Part shown: positions 28,259 to 36,225 of the stretch, piece after piece
Layout of the letters: each line of letters begins with the position of its first letter
Position numbering within the stretch: the stretch's first letter is position 1
DNA from: a virus
DNA length: 64,000 bases
Reading direction: 5' to 3' (one strand)
Virus record (IMG/VR): IMGVR_UViG_3300030060_002738
Span: 34,041 to 98,040 of that record
Program-made: the position numbers and the translations under genes
The notes under the pieces: model-generated
The model's database searches: none
The model's input: the letters and a program-made list of their open reading frames with translations, nothing else
What the model was told of the DNA's origin: nothing

Positions 28259-29620
28259 ATGAGTGGATATATTAACACAGTAAAAGACTTAGAAGCAGCC
28301 ACCTACGGCTATGCTGGCGCATCAGGTAACGCCCTGTTGAAAGCGGCTGGTGTCGTTGGTGGTTTCGGAACGCCCCACGATGCAGGAAGCAACCCGTTTT
28401 CTGCTGCTAGTGGGTTGGGAGACCTATACAATGTTCTCTATGGACAGAAAGTATGGTCTATGCTAAACCAAGAGGTTAACCCTCTTGCTATGCTTGCAAA
28501 GAGACCCTACACATCCAGTGGATGGAGAGTCCTAAAGAGCAGAGCGCAGGGTGGCTCAGGTTCTGCATTCGGTATTGGAACTGGTTCAGAGGGTTCAGAC
28601 ACACCAAGAGCAGACAAGATTGGTGGTGTTGGTGAGAACGCAACTCTAGGAACTGGAAACGATATCCCACCGATTGCACCTCAGTATGAGAAACTATACG
28701 TCAGTCCAAAGACGATTGCTCACTTGTTTGAGTTCTCGGAACTTGGTATGGAACTTGCTGCTATTGATGACGGTGTTGGTGACATTCGTGCAATCGTTAG
28801 AGAGGACATGGGTAAACTACACGCAGAGACTCAGAGCAAGATGCTAGTAATGCCTCTTGAGAGGTATGATGACGGAACTGCAACAACCATCGAGCGCAAC
28901 TACACTTCTCTACTGAAGATAGTTTCCTCTGCTGGTGAGATTGCTGCTATGTATAACGCAAACCTATTGGACACTGGTGCTAACAACGGAGACAACTCCG
29001 CAGTTGTTGCAGATGTAGTAAGGCTATTCGGTACTTCCCGAACTGTCTCTGTATCGAGCAACGCCGCAACTGGAACTGCTTCCTTCTTGGATGCAGAGGT
29101 TGACTTCGGTGCAGGATATGCTTCCGGTGATGCTAGGGTTCTAACCCTGACCATGCTTAATGACATGATTAGGAGAATCAGGCAGAACGGCGGAAACCCC
29201 AAGGTTATCTTAACTGGCTACGACACTGTTCAGCACCTTGCTGACCTTCTACAAAGCCAAGAGAGATTCATGGACAGGAAGGAGATTGTGCCTACCCACA
29301 ACGGAGTTCGTGGAGTTAAGGGACAGGAAGTTGGATTCAGAGTTGCAACATACTACGACATCCCAATTATCCCAACCAAGGACATGCCATCCACTGGTGC
29401 AAACACAACCAACACTCTGAGTGACTTGCTCATCCTAGACACAGACCATCTGTGGCTATCAGTGATGAAGCCTACTCAATACTTTGAGGATGGTATCACT
29501 AGCGGAAACCCATTCGGTGTTGGCAAACTTGGAAACCAAGGGATGTACCGAACGATGGGTGAAACCGGATGTTCGTTCTTCAAGGGACAAGGAAAGATAA
29601 CCAACATCAAGAGTGCTTGA
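28259..29620 (+). CDS. Major capsid protein, HK97 fold
   Basis: 453 residues right after the protease-scaffold gene, with TAATG-like spacing (stop 28255-28257, ATG 28259) and AAGGTGAAC as ribosome site. The helical N-terminal arm with NALLKAAGVVGG (about 24-35) may be a delta-type segment. The core has LAMLAKRPYTSSGWRVLKSR and IAHLFEFSELGMELAAIDD (spine helix region). Near the end, LLILDTDHLWLSVMKPTQYF is the typical P-domain strand set. It forms the icosahedral shell. LLKA near residue 27 resembles the LKA of the tag, so cleavage there is conceivable. Confidence 0.85.
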   Translation: MSGYINTVKDLEAATYGYAGASGNALLKAAGVVGGFGTPHDAGSNPFSAASGLGDLYNVLYGQKVWSMLNQEVNPLAMLAKRPYTSSGWRVLKSRAQGGSGSAFGIGTGSEGSDTPRADKIGGVGENATLGTGNDIPPIAPQYEKLYVSPKTIAHLFEFSELGMELAAIDDGVGDIRAIVREDMGKLHAETQSKMLVMPLERYDDGTATTIERNYTSLLKIVSSAGEIAAMYNANLLDTGANNGDNSAVVADVVRLFGTSRTVSVSSNAATGTASFLDAEVDFGAGYASGDARVLTLTMLNDMIRRIRQNGGNPKVILTGYDTVQHLADLLQSQERFMDRKEIVPTHNGVRGVKGQEVGFRVATYYDIPIIPTKDMPSTGANTTNTLSDLLILDTDHLWLSVMKPTQYFEDGITSGNPFGVGKLGNQGMYRTMGETGCSFFKGQGKITNIKSA

Positions 29621-30056: not shown

Positions 30057-30551
30057 ATGGCAAAAGTAAAGTTAGCAAGACATAGAGTATCCGGCCCTCT
30101 TCTGCTTAGAAGGGCTGGCAATACATACGCATTAACAGCGCAAGAAGATACTGTTGTTCCTTTGGGAATAGCAATAGGAATGCTAGGAGACGAAGGGCTT
30201 CTAGTTGAACTGGATTCTACTGATTCAACAGATGTTCTCGGTTTGAACGAGTACAACTTAACGTTACTCAAGAGGGAGTTTGGTCTAGAGGGAGATGCTA
30301 AGGCAGTCAAGGCTGCATTGTTCCCACCAGCCAAGAAGACCTTCATTCCTAATCTCATCAAGGAGACTCCCGTAGAGGAGACTCCCGTAGTAGAAGAGCC
30401 AGTAGCAGAAGAACCTGAAGAGGTTGAAGAAGAGGCTATTGACTACTCGCAATATACAGTGAAACAACTGAAAGAAATGCTTGAGGAAAAGGGACTATCT
30501 ACTGATGGCAAGAAAGCCGACCTAGTAGAGAGGATGTCGGGGGCAGAGTGA
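30057..30551 (+). CDS. Head protein with C-terminal SAP domain (164 aa)
   Basis: The N-terminal 90 residues are beta-rich (MAKVKLARHRVSGPLLL; NTYALTAQEDTVVPLGI). A repetitive acidic linker follows (ETPVEETPVVEEPVAEEP). The C-terminus YTVKQLKEMLEEKGLSTDGK and then KADLVERM is a SAP helix-loop-helix, usually a DNA- or RNA-binding fold. A virion head protein that contacts packaged DNA through SAP is an inference. GGTGTTATT precedes the ATG. Confidence 0.65.
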   Translation: MAKVKLARHRVSGPLLLRRAGNTYALTAQEDTVVPLGIAIGMLGDEGLLVELDSTDSTDVLGLNEYNLTLLKREFGLEGDAKAVKAALFPPAKKTFIPNLIKETPVEETPVVEEPVAEEPEEVEEEAIDYSQYTVKQLKEMLEEKGLSTDGKKADLVERMSGAE

Positions 30552-30847
30552 TGTCATCACCTACCTGCAACAGCACAGGAGTTCTTTCTACAAGCACCGT
30601 TGCAGTAAAGCATCACTGCAAGATAATGAGCGTTCATGCTACATCAACAGCAAACGCTGTAATGACTGTCAAGATATGGGACAGTGACGATTCATCCACA
30701 TCAGGCAAGAAGGAGGTTGCCCGACTAGTTCTACACGCCGGAGGAACTGCTCAGACCATTGAGCAAGACCTACATGGTGTTCTTGTAGCAAATGGAATAT
30801 ACGTTCAGATTACAGGAACTGGAACTTGTTCAGTCAACTTTGCTTGA
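30551..30847 (+). CDS. Small beta-rich virion protein (98 aa)
   Basis: ATG 30551 overlaps the previous stop (TGATG). The product alternates short strands (STVAVKHHCKIMSVHATS; AVMTVKIWDSDDS; GIYVQITGTGTCSVNFA), a jelly-roll or Ig-like pattern common in capsid-binding or adaptor proteins. No specific family recognised. Confidence 0.55.
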   Translation: MSSPTCNSTGVLSTSTVAVKHHCKIMSVHATSTANAVMTVKIWDSDDSSTSGKKEVARLVLHAGGTAQTIEQDLHGVLVANGIYVQITGTGTCSVNFA

Positions 30848-30857
30848 GGTGATTAAG

Positions 30858-31289
30858 ATGCCAAGTATAGATACAGATACTAGACTAATAATGACTGTTC
30901 TTTTTGTTGGAGCAGTTAGCGGAGTCAACGTTTACTTCTTCTCACAATACGGTACAACATTTGTCAATGCATACGGACCTTATCCAGTGGCTATGATATT
31001 TGGCGTACTCACGGTTGGGGGCATTGTTATATTGAAAGCGTTGTTTGATTTGATGATTAATGATTACATAGAGGACTTCCTACTTCAAAGACAGATAAAC
31101 TCGTATTGGAACAGAAAGGCAAGAGATGAGGAGAACCGTAAGAGAGTTAGGGAGTCATTTAGAGGCTTCCAACAGCAGTTTGGTACAACGCCAACAATAT
31201 ATGGCGACCAAAACCTTCCAATGATGCCACCACCATCACAGGAAGTACAAACGGTTAGTCCTACTTTCCTAACAGGTTTCAATGAGTGA
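30858..31289 (+). CDS. Membrane protein with two predicted transmembrane helices (143 aa)
   Basis: ATG 30858 (MPSIDTDTRLIMTVLFVG) follows GAGGTGATTAAG; the upstream open frame is a shadow. Two hydrophobic segments, about residues 11-27 (LIMTVLFVGAVSGVNVYFF) and 40-62 (VAMIFGVLTVGGIVILKALF), are followed by a charged helical region (RQINSYWNRKARDEENRK) and a Pro-rich tail. Two helices and a polar tail could be a holin-like protein, a membrane anchor, or an injection channel component. First gene of the membrane/GTPase cassette. Confidence 0.65.
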   Translation: MPSIDTDTRLIMTVLFVGAVSGVNVYFFSQYGTTFVNAYGPYPVAMIFGVLTVGGIVILKALFDLMINDYIEDFLLQRQINSYWNRKARDEENRKRVRESFRGFQQQFGTTPTIYGDQNLPMMPPPSQEVQTVSPTFLTGFNE

Positions 31290-31294
31290 TTTAG

Positions 31295-31516
31295 ATGGTA
31301 AGTGAAATCCTATTTGGGATGGATGAATCCACTCTCGCATATGATTTACAACGAGCGCATTCGGCTGACGTTTGGTTTCTAAGAGCAAGATTTTGGCTTT
31401 GGGGAACGTTTGCATCTATTGCAAGTTTCTTCGTAGGTCATGCTATTTCTCTTTGGGGAATTAATTTGTATGAAGTTGGATGGCATGTACTCAGTTCCCT
31501 TTGGGGCGGTCATTAA
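31295..31516 (+). CDS. Small membrane protein (73 aa)
   Basis: Five bases after the previous gene. It has an amphipathic N-terminus (LAYDLQRAHSADVWFLR), a hydrophobic segment around residues 30-52 (FWLWGTFASIASFFVGHAI) and a second weaker one (LYEVGWHVLSSLWGGH). Probably one or two membrane passes. It lies between the two-helix protein and the GTPase, so the three may work together. Confidence 0.6.
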   Translation: MVSEILFGMDESTLAYDLQRAHSADVWFLRARFWLWGTFASIASFFVGHAISLWGINLYEVGWHVLSSLWGGH

Positions 31517-31570
31517 CTTCTCAACCATTTTAATGCTCTTCGACATCCGACTCACTGACGAGGTGATAGT

Positions 31571-32242
31571 GTGTCGGTAATGGCAGGTTTCGCAATACTC
31601 ATTGTAGAAGCCATGAACAAGTTGTATAACCGTCTTCATGCTATCAATTTCGGCATCTATGGTGCGAGTCAAGCAGGTAAGACTACCCTGCATAAGCAAT
31701 TGATGACTAGGGGAGAAGTACCTGAGATACAAAAGCGTACAGTAGGCAGACACAGGGCTACTCGTAAGTTCGTAAAACTAGATGGTGATGCACATACCGT
31801 GAAGACTGCTGACATAGGTGGGCAGACTGTATATTGGGAGGAATGGGTTAGAGATATGCGAGGAAGACATGTCAAATATATCATCTTCATGTTTGATGAC
31901 AGGCATCTTAGCAAGCACTATGATATAGAGCAACAATTGTCTTGGACATTTCTAGTTGATACTATCTGCAACCCGTATTGGACAATTGGTGGTAGAAAGA
32001 AGAAGAAGCAAGAACATGATTATCCTTTGGCTGTCGGACTTTGGGCAAACAAGTATGACTTATGGAAAGACAAGTATCCCTACGATGGAAAAATAGAAGA
32101 CCACCCAATCTTTGAATCTTTCAAGCCCGGATTACAGAAGTTGAATGAGACTGGCATACCATGTCACAAATACATCGTAAGTGCAAAGTCTGATTCAGAA
32201 ATGGTTTACCGTGGAATATTAACAATGATAAAAGACTACTGA
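31571..32242 (+). CDS. Arf/Ras-like small GTPase (223 aa)
   Basis: GTG 31571 after GAGGTGATA. All five GTPase motifs are present: G1 G31-ASQA-GKT38, G2 Thr57 in KRTVGR, G3 D81-IGGQ85 (Arf-style D-x-GGQ), G4 N160-KYD163 and G5 S204-AK206. The first 24 residues (MAGFAILIVEAMNKLYNRLH) form a hydrophobic or amphipathic helix, as in membrane-associated Arf proteins. A 20-residue insert with KKKK lies before G4. GTP-dependent switching at a membrane is the family role; in a tailed virus, between membrane proteins and connector genes, it is very unusual. Acquisition from an archaeal host is likely. Confidence 0.85.
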   Translation: MSVMAGFAILIVEAMNKLYNRLHAINFGIYGASQAGKTTLHKQLMTRGEVPEIQKRTVGRHRATRKFVKLDGDAHTVKTADIGGQTVYWEEWVRDMRGRHVKYIIFMFDDRHLSKHYDIEQQLSWTFLVDTICNPYWTIGGRKKKKQEHDYPLAVGLWANKYDLWKDKYPYDGKIEDHPIFESFKPGLQKLNETGIPCHKYIVSAKSDSEMVYRGILTMIKDY

Positions 32243-32302: not shown

Positions 32303-32983
32303 ATGTCTATGCAATTTAACCCCCCTAGTTTGATAGGAGCAACGAACGCAACAGTGAACAGTGGTACTAATCCATTCATGGATAGAACAACTGCTGCAAG
32401 AGCAGCAGGGCCGATAATGCCATATGAATATAAATCTATGAAACCAAAGAAACAATTGAAAGAAATTGTTAAAGTTTTGAAACCTGAAAAGAAAACCTTT
32501 CTCAAAGTGCCTTACAGTTTCAAATACAACATAAATGATAGATGTGTAATATGTGGAACGCAAAAGGTATGGACTGCTAACGATAGCAGAAGACCCCCAC
32601 TTCCACTGCACAAGGTTCGCAAGGGATACCCAATGAGAGGAACGTACTGTGAGAAACACGCAGCCATACACATGCAATATGAGATGCTAGAGCAACAGAT
32701 ACTAGCAGAAGAACACGGACTTTCGTTTAGTGCTTACATACCATCTGCTAGAAGTTTAAATCCAGTGAATCTAGTAAAGTCAGGACCGATAACACAACTG
32801 AAGCAAGAGGACATCAATTCTCTCACTTCATTAGGTTGGAACATTACTCCTCCGGCAAATGAAAACTCATCAAAAGAAGAGCAGTTGTATGCTTTGATGA
32901 TAGAGAATACAGCCATGTCTGCTAAGATTAAATCTTTATTGACCGAAGGCGTTAAGATTGAGACACAGGAAGGTGGCGAGTGA
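32303..32983 (+). CDS. Hypothetical zinc-binding head/connector-region protein (226 aa)
   Basis: Disordered N-terminus, then a Lys-rich helix (KKQLKEIVKVLKPEKK) and CVICGTQKVW with CEKHAAIH about 45 residues later, a CxxC...CxxH zinc site. The rest is helical (EMLEQQILAEEHGLSF) with an acidic tail. Its stop overlaps the next ATG. Function unknown; expected in the virion by position. Confidence 0.6.
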   Translation: MSMQFNPPSLIGATNATVNSGTNPFMDRTTAARAAGPIMPYEYKSMKPKKQLKEIVKVLKPEKKTFLKVPYSFKYNINDRCVICGTQKVWTANDSRRPPLPLHKVRKGYPMRGTYCEKHAAIHMQYEMLEQQILAEEHGLSFSAYIPSARSLNPVNLVKSGPITQLKQEDINSLTSLGWNITPPANENSSKEEQLYALMIENTAMSAKIKSLLTEGVKIETQEGGE

Positions 32984-33693
32984 TGGGTGTATTCGGAACG
33001 AGCAACTCGGCCTTATCTTCTCAGATTAATACAATGGGGCAAGCCAACTTTAAAATGACTAACAATCTCTTAACTTTGCAAGAGAATCATGTGGAAGAAT
33101 TCTTTCAGTATCACGGAGAACCATTCCTAAGTGCATTTGAAAAGATGATGGAAGATGTGATGACGAGAGTTGTCAGTGAAATGCTTGTCAAGATGAAATT
33201 TGTATCTAACACTAATGGTGATTTAGAAATACATCCTGATTCCTTGTCAGAATTTACAAGCATCACACAAGAAAACATAGACTTGGACATTGTGAATCTA
33301 CTGGCGACTGCTGTTAATTCGGAAGTCATTATGCAGAGAAGAATGGCTAAACAACAATATCTAGAATCACAAGGCTTTACCTCACCTTCACAAGAATCAC
33401 AGATGGGTGCTGTGCAGCAACAAGGAATGTCACAGGCAATGCCACAAGCCGCATCTCCTAACATACAGGGCGCACCTGCTATGGGAGGAATGAACCAGCA
33501 GATGATGCAACAACAGATGGCCCTCAACAATCAATCAGGATATCCTATTCCACCTGCTGGATATGACCAATACAATAACCCGTATTGGATAGACCCCAAT
33601 ACTGGTCAACCATCATACACCCCACCAACTAGTGGTCTTGGACTGGCTGGTGCTTTGAGTAAAGGGGTTGCTTGGGCGAAGTGGTTAGCATAG
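32983..33693 (+). CDS. Hypothetical protein with Gln/Met/Pro-rich region (236 aa)
   Basis: ATG 32983 overlaps the previous stop (TGATG). Residues 1-125 are helical (EEFFQYHGEPFLSAFEKMM). The middle is low-complexity Gln/Met/Ala/Gly/Pro (QQGMSQAMPQAASPN; MNQQMMQQQMALNNQ). The end has YDQYNNPYWIDPNTGQPSY and a hydrophobic Gly/Ala helix (LGLAGALSKGVAWAKW). It may attach to membranes or to the virion; no family recognised. Confidence 0.6.
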   Translation: MGVFGTSNSALSSQINTMGQANFKMTNNLLTLQENHVEEFFQYHGEPFLSAFEKMMEDVMTRVVSEMLVKMKFVSNTNGDLEIHPDSLSEFTSITQENIDLDIVNLLATAVNSEVIMQRRMAKQQYLESQGFTSPSQESQMGAVQQQGMSQAMPQAASPNIQGAPAMGGMNQQMMQQQMALNNQSGYPIPPAGYDQYNNPYWIDPNTGQPSYTPPTSGLGLAGALSKGVAWAKWLA

Positions 33694-35148: not shown

Positions 35149-36225
35149 ATGTCAAAACTATCCTCCCCAAGTGACTTTACAAACATCAATCCAAACTACT
35201 CGCAAGGGAGAGGGTTCTACACTACGCATAGTGATGTGTCACAGTTATTGCAGATAGCAGCATTCAGTTCATCTACCACTCCTTCAATCGCTGAAGTGGG
35301 TACTCTAATCAAAAGAGCAGAGGAAAGAGTAGATGATGTAGTTGGACACTCTTATCGACCAGTAATCTATCACCATGAGTTTCATGGGTTTGAGGCTTTC
35401 AAGATGGGTGCTTATCCAGTAAACAGGTTCAAGGATTACATTGGCTTTGTTCAACTAGAGAGACCTGATGTTCAGAAGATTGTGAGGCTAGAGGTATGGC
35501 AGGGAACTGAGTATGTTGACTTGGCATCTGCCTCTGCTAAGGTAAAAGTTCCATCGAGTCCCACAGGAGGCTCTTGGGTTATCGCTCTAGGTGTAGGAGC
35601 ATACACATTCAACATAACGAAGGGAACTGATTTCTTCGACAACTATGGCCCAAAGACAACTGCGAGTCAAATAGCAGATGCAATTAACGAGGTCTTCCCA
35701 CACAAGACTGCGAAGTTCACTGGTGAGACTTCTGCTAAGTCTGTTACTGCAAACGGTGCGCCTACTGTGAACATATCTGATTTCTTCTATGCCACAACGG
35801 ATAGTGAAGCAGGAGACACAGTTGTAATCTCCTCTCTCTTGATGGGAGAGGATGGTTCTGCTTGTACGATATCATCAACAGTTGGCACAGTGACTCAGTT
35901 CACAGATAACCAAGACCAAAGAAGGTTAGGAGATTACTGGACAATTGGCAAGGATGGTAAGATATTCTTCTTGAAGAACTACCCATTCCTACATTCACAT
36001 TCTGTTCGTGTCACATATGTCAGTGGGGAAAAGAGAGTACCCGCTACGATACATGATGCTGCTACAAAACTGGTTGCAGCCGAAGTCATAAGACATGATG
36101 ACAACTCCATACTCATTGCTGAAACAGGCTCTAACATAGACCTGAAGACCAAGCACGACATACTTCTTGAAGAGGCTAATAAAATACTGAATGGAAAGAA
36201 GGATGTCATACATTTCATTGACTAG
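35149..36225 (+). CDS. Head-tail connector (adaptor, gp6-like) with inserted beta domain (358 aa)
   Basis: The first 80 residues form the helical bundle start of connector proteins (IAEVGTLIKRAEERVDDVVG, then SYRPVIYHHEF). The C-terminus returns to helices (IHDAATKLVAAEVIRHDD; HDILLEEANKIL), as in HK97 gp6-type adaptors that bind under the portal. Between them is a Ser/Thr/Val-rich beta insert of about 150 residues. Position ahead of the tail-end genes supports the assignment. Confidence 0.65.
   Translation: MSKLSSPSDFTNINPNYSQGRGFYTTHSDVSQLLQIAAFSSSTTPSIAEVGTLIKRAEERVDDVVGHSYRPVIYHHEFHGFEAFKMGAYPVNRFKDYIGFVQLERPDVQKIVRLEVWQGTEYVDLASASAKVKVPSSPTGGSWVIALGVGAYTFNITKGTDFFDNYGPKTTASQIADAINEVFPHKTAKFTGETSAKSVTANGAPTVNISDFFYATTDSEAGDTVVISSLLMGEDGSACTISSTVGTVTQFTDNQDQRRLGDYWTIGKDGKIFFLKNYPFLHSHSVRVTYVSGEKRVPATIHDAATKLVAAEVIRHDDNSILIAETGSNIDLKTKHDILLEEANKILNGKKDVIHFID

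Follow-up and report, generated by a model that had tools for sequence, protein, structure and literature searches.

A small GTPase linked to two membrane proteins in a five-gene cassette of the head operon of magrovirus-like viruses

Why would a tailed virus place a small GTPase and two membrane proteins among the genes that build its head? This question is raised by a 64,000-nucleotide stretch of DNA (the window), which corresponds to positions 34041-98040 of a virus record of 98,040 bases. The prohead protease and the major capsid protein (MCP) of the window both match PHROG families, and the MCP is 25-28% identical to the capsid proteins of Haloarcula tailed viruses. On the opposite strand, the record encodes a PolB split over two genes, an RFC small subunit, a TFIIB-type zinc ribbon, a B12-dependent RNR and a ThiF protein. 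Judged from the published descriptions, the record thus displays the hallmarks of the Magrovirales, i.e. split PolB, RFC, TFB, an HVTV-1-like MCP, a genome of 90-110 kb and opposed modules (PMC10768690, PMC12999244), and this resemblance fits a magrovirus-like virus. As magroviruses are associated with Poseidoniales (PMC10768690, PMC12999244), the carriers of the cassette described below are probably a large group of ocean viruses with archaeal hosts, the host assignment following from resemblance to magroviruses and not from direct host evidence.

The original prediction, made from the letters of the window, described a two-helix membrane protein, a second small membrane protein and a GTPase in one compact run between decoration and connector genes. 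Both membrane proteins were recovered: M1 has two hydrophobic segments and a charged C-tail, and M2 has one clear hydrophobic segment and possibly a short second one. The flanks likewise stood, on the right by homology to HVTV-1 gp125 (E 1e-8) and on the left by position only, but the extent of three genes had to be revised to five, with the run reaching position 33693 (Table 1). The cassette lies between capsid genes upstream and the connector homologue downstream, M1, M2 and the GTPase gene are mostly spaced by short gaps or overlaps, and gene order and strand are invariant across relatives. The protein in the left flank has no sequence match to HVTV-1 gp123, and its gene is also kept in cassette-less relatives. 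In some relatives, one or two extra small genes are found between M2 and the GTPase (L260 5221-5772, L278 5221-6059, L303 5221-5772, L308 5209-6152), which carry the N-terminal tag discussed below and include a recurring gene of 173-211 aa; since the cassette around them is intact, this junction accepts cargo genes.

Table 1. Coordinates of the cassette, its neighbours and the N-terminal tag in the window.
Feature	Position	Strand	Basis
Major capsid protein (MCP), basis of family tree	28259..29620	+	PHROG major head protein 1.2e-25; HVTV-1 MCP 28% identity
Left flank: small protein in HVTV-1 gp123 slot, decoration-like by position only	30548..30847	+	synteny with HVTV-1
M1, 143 aa, predicted 2-TM hairpin	30858..31289	+	hydrophobicity, 25-row alignment
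M2, 73-aa membrane protein	31295..31516	+	hydrophobicity, alignment of both clades
Small GTPase, 223 aa, GTG start, G1-G5 complete	31571..32242	+	motifs, AlphaFold2 model m489127993569, VIA-align, dN/dS
Fourth gene, 226 aa, conserved CxxC...CxxH, predicted zinc site	32303..32983	+	alignment; constant companion of GTPase
Fifth gene, 237-aa helical protein	32980..33693	+	alignment; constant companion of GTPase
Right flank: HVTV-1 gp125 homologue, connector-like by position	35149..36225	+	BLASTP E 1e-8
N-terminal tag, window	6846, 7130, 7441, 9034, 9851 (internal start), 22539, 22865, 23368		
N-terminal tag, other loci	L260, L303, L308, L323, L326, L340		

A survey of relatives bore out the predicted linkage of the three genes, for which a GTPase isolated from the membrane genes would have been the counterexample: wherever the sequence upstream of a distinct GTPase locus was long enough, M1 and M2 were present (229 of 229) and, conversely, wherever it was long enough downstream of a distinct M2 locus, the GTPase was present (219 of 219). 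When every fetched locus that spans MCP to connector was counted (many loci of the survey being partial contigs), this slot contained all five genes in 297 loci (180 distinct), none of them in 31 (26 distinct) and a partial set in 0. In an MCP tree of 73 rows, all 46 cassette rows fall on one side and all 25 cassette-less rows on the other, corresponding to a single change, a value as low as which was reached in 0 of 500 label shuffles. Since the branch that parts the two sets has a support of 89/89, a single origin of the cassette is favoured rather than proved. No loss of the GTPase was seen inside the cassette clade. In the cassette-less viruses the decoration-slot gene is directly followed by a large gene for 790-1026 aa and then by the connector homologue, and a search of 16 such records (several of them fragments) with the small_GTP model revealed no small GTPase elsewhere, the same search giving a match in 3 of 3 cassette-bearing control records. 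As to PolB (G000:C1:10902-13850, minus strand; G017, G018, G019), it spans two neighbouring genes in those cassette-bearing viruses that were sampled and is in one piece in the cassette-less records with PolB.

Outside this group, tblastn gave no match in annotated phages at E up to 0.01, and the databases and literature searched contained no such unit in other tailed viruses, in agreement with the earlier remark that no comparable cassette is known in head-tail viruses; this result is bounded by those collections, and the supplements of the 2017 and 2025 magrovirus papers may mention this GTPase. A genome scan for cellular homologues yielded only two viral-looking contigs in one bacterial MAG, and because it was run with virus-specific patterns it does not show their absence from cells. 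The two contigs (L157, L158, from a Maricaulis MAG) carry the cassette together with viral head genes and look like virus contigs that were misbinned.

The GTPase of the window bears the motifs GASQAGKTT, RTVG, DIGGQ, NKYD and SAK, and every one of 222 distinct sequences retains G1, the G2 Thr, G3, G4 (NKxD) and G5 (SAK). All five predicted G motifs are therefore present and conserved, which excludes a chance reading frame. Two AlphaFold2 models of moderate confidence (pLDDT 65) agree on the order of elements of a small GTPase (antiparallel beta2-beta3, with five helices surrounding the sheet), and comparison with small GTPases gave a Foldseek probability of 1.00 and VIA-align Z scores of 14-17. 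The top VIA-align matches were Arf1/Arf6 (Z 16.9, rmsd 2.5 Å over about 161 residues; Z 16-17 for Arf1/Arf6/Arl as a set), with which G-alpha (Z 16.4) and Gtr/Rag (Z 16.2) are tied under the tie rule of the tool (1). The predicted structure is thus inside the TRAFAC fold, as the original prediction required. The NCBIfam small_GTP model matches 47 of 47 members below its cut-off (for the window protein, best E 2.5e-6 and 27.4 bits where 42.5 would be needed), and the Pfam models MMR_HSR1, Roc, SRPRB and Arf match the window protein below cut-off as well. By motifs and fold the protein is a small-GTPase-like member of the TRAFAC small GTPase superfamily that stays under the cut-offs of the curated families. 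As neither an isolated GTPase nor a fold outside TRAFAC was found, the linkage of M1, M2 and the GTPase into one unit is real.

The label "Arf-style" in the original prediction, on the other hand, was too specific. Arf/Arl/Sar (PF00025) provide the best structural matches and also have a helix ahead of the G domain; the viral GTPase differs from them in its score below the Pfam cut-off and in three sequence features. First, Gly2 is the myristoylation site of Arf proper, and in the viral alignment of 47 rows Met1 and Ser2 are invariant. Second, the WDxGGQ form of G3 seen in Arf is absent, as DxGGQ occurs in 48 and DxGGE in 174 of the 222 sequences, with no W. Third, G5 reads SAK, as in Ras/Rab, in place of the CAT or SAT of Arf. 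Membership in Arf was rejected on the absence of Gly2, WDxGGQ and CAT. The residue after DxGG, i.e. the catalytic position, is only ever Glu or Gln, with six changes between them on the tree. Because Glu is the residue of the large majority and also stands at the midpoint root, the Arf-like GGQ of the window is probably a secondary state. The N-terminal helix, predicted as hydrophobic or amphipathic, comprises residues 3-22 of the AlphaFold2 model and turned out to have both characters, residues 2-12 being hydrophobic throughout and residues 10-22 amphipathic. It is too short for a normal TM segment and would be suited to insertion into one leaflet or to docking on M1/M2. Comparison of the GTPase profile with the M1 profile revealed no meaningful similarity.

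The cassette is under strong purifying selection of different degrees, with median dN/dS values of 0.084 for the GTPase (the lowest of the module), 0.133 for M1, 0.195 for the fifth protein, 0.209 for the zinc-motif protein and 0.228 for M2. The corresponding values are 0.21 for the MCP and 0.43-0.76 for the small head proteins whose genes separate it from M1. This constraint rules out that the GTPase is a chance or decayed gene; conservation within the module is highest for the GTPase, at a mean pairwise identity of 0.71 versus 0.66 for the MCP. In M1, the K/R-rich C-tail ends in a conserved FLT motif, and no family match was found in Pfam, PHROG, NCBIfam or PADLOC. M2 begins with a segment containing RAHSAD, invariant in the alignment of both clades, which is followed by the TM segment. 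The M1 C-tail and the M2 RAHSAD segment are the most conserved non-membrane parts and are predicted to be cytosolic (topology from hydrophobicity, sidedness from the K/R count), so that the GTPase or capsids might be held there. The fourth protein has a conserved CVxCG...GTYCxKH (46 aligned rows) with no match to a Pfam family, and the fifth features NLLxLQxNHVExFFQYHG, a Gln/Pro-rich linker and a conserved AWAKWL C-terminus. A defence system was rejected as a candidate, there being no PADLOC match at E up to 1.

What might these five genes do together? A precedent is the vesiculation operon ArvABC (OapABC) of Haloferax and other archaea, in which haloarchaeal ArvA is a small GTPase whose N-terminal helix is amphipathic, and the Zn-ribbon partner in the operon, ArvC, has been suggested to act as a GAP (PMC10927574). 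ArvA is needed for vesicle formation: loss of this small GTPase abolishes the formation of RNA-carrying vesicles, and overexpression leads to hypervesiculation (PMC10927574). With a confidence that falls just short of even, we propose that the viral cassette encodes a GTPase switch docked at the membrane, which serves virion morphogenesis and/or exit and is expressed late to judge from its position in the head operon. M1 (a 2-TM hairpin with cytosolic tail) and M2 (a cytosolic RAHSAD segment plus TM) would form a membrane platform on which the GTPase would dock via its N-terminal helix, cycling between its GTP and GDP states. Regulation would fall to the CxxC..CxxH protein, which might act as a GAP in the way suggested for ArvC, and the fifth protein would connect the switch with capsids, the linkage of the genes suggesting that their products form a complex. 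Such a switch might bring proheads or virions together at the membrane, or it might deform or open the membrane to let particles out, membrane remodelling by the cassette being what we infer. This assembly or exit model is supported by the absolute linkage, the one change on the MCP tree, the place in the head operon, the invariant order and strand, the mostly close spacing of M1, M2 and the GTPase, the dN/dS values, the intact G motifs with only Gln or Glu at the catalytic position, the small-GTPase fold, the N-terminal helix and the ArvA precedent. It is weakened by the relatives with similar capsids that manage without the cassette, by the lack of an ArvB match and by the lack of a Pfam match for the zinc-motif protein.

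The original prediction had left open whether the locus serves membrane remodelling, exit, entry or host interference, of which a structural or egress role is the part that we favour. If M1/M2 and the GTPase were instead packaged, they could function at the membrane of the host while the genome is being delivered, and both the head and connector genes on either side of the cassette and a constraint equal to that of core virion genes are in line with such a virion-borne entry device. We consider it unlikely, as integral membrane proteins would be unusual in an unenveloped tailed virion and as the five proteins do not have the N-terminal MxWxxILK tag, a possible targeting signal, of many other late proteins. 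The tag, M-[ST/N/D]-W-x-x-[IVL]-[LM]-K (MSWEDVLK, MTWQEILK, MNWFDIMK), opens many otherwise unrelated late proteins; it is found in 8 of 76 ORF N-termini versus 0 of 510 internal 30-residue pieces, in relatives both with and without the cassette. The internal proteins of T4 carry a capsid-targeting signal, and by analogy the tag is possibly a signal of this kind.

A lysis cassette, in which M1 is a holin-like hairpin, M2 its partner and the GTPase times the opening, strikes us as rather unlikely. By hydrophobicity and K/R count, M1 does resemble a class II holin (two TM, both ends cytosolic, charged C-tail), and a 2015 review knew of no membrane-disruption mechanism for archaeal lytic viruses (PMC4456609). 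Against this, M1 is among the most constrained genes whereas holins usually diverge fast, the cassette genes are inside the head operon and no known holin family was matched. Moreover, we know of no GTPase-gated holin. Finally, the ArvA-type vesiculating GTPases that occur in many archaea (PMC10927574) make a viral competitor of a host small-GTPase, vesicle or polarity pathway conceivable, but we regard such interference as improbable because all catalytic motifs are intact, the cassette sits in the late head operon with obligatory partners, and it is never lost across the clade, whereas a gene of this type is expected to be patchy.

Taken as a switch for assembly or exit, the cassette hints that tailed viruses may act at the host cell membrane in a manner not described so far. 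More tentatively still, marine archaeal tailed viruses may have evolved their own small-GTPase membrane machine, a counterpart of Arf/ArvA remodelling, for assembly at, or exit through, the membrane of the host. If so, egress or assembly would be driven by GTP along a pathway that is not known for any member of the Caudoviricetes, and the cassette would show that small-GTPase membrane switches in archaea extend beyond cellular genomes. A GTPase-membrane cassette that is never lost and strongly constrained offers five concrete genes to test. While the GTPase superfamily is already known, we found no described family or system that matches the unit as a whole in its setting.

The top matches with a name that the GTPase has in a set of predicted viral structures were GTPases of giant eukaryotic viruses. 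These Rab/Ras-like proteins are also small GTPases encoded by viruses, but they belong to an unrelated virus lineage with eukaryotic hosts and are stand-alone genes captured from the host; to our knowledge, giant viruses have no membrane-protein cassette in a head operon. The head module of HVTV-1 (Druskaviridae) shares a homologous MCP, the connector-like gp125 and, in the corresponding slot, the 1-TM protein gp124, but has no counterpart of the GTPase, the zinc-motif gene or the fifth gene among its annotated genes. HVTV-1 gp124 (L082 8199-8531) is an unannotated single-TM protein between the decoration-slot gene and gp125, and hhalign (0.1%) gave no support for M1 as its relative. As to ArvABC, the virus adds two small membrane proteins absent from the description of that operon and carries its genes in a head operon. 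The 98 kb record gave no match to ArvB (PF09846; the control matched in Haloferax volcanii) and the viral zinc-motif protein no Pfam match such as the DUF2072 Zn-ribbon of ArvC; with these partners missing, membership in ArvABC was rejected. We therefore liken the cassette to ArvABC by its working rather than file it as a member, and retain ArvABC as a working analogue, with which the viral cassette shares a small GTPase with a hydrophobic/amphipathic N-terminal helix, a fold with Arf among its nearest matches and tightly linked partners, one of them with a zinc motif.
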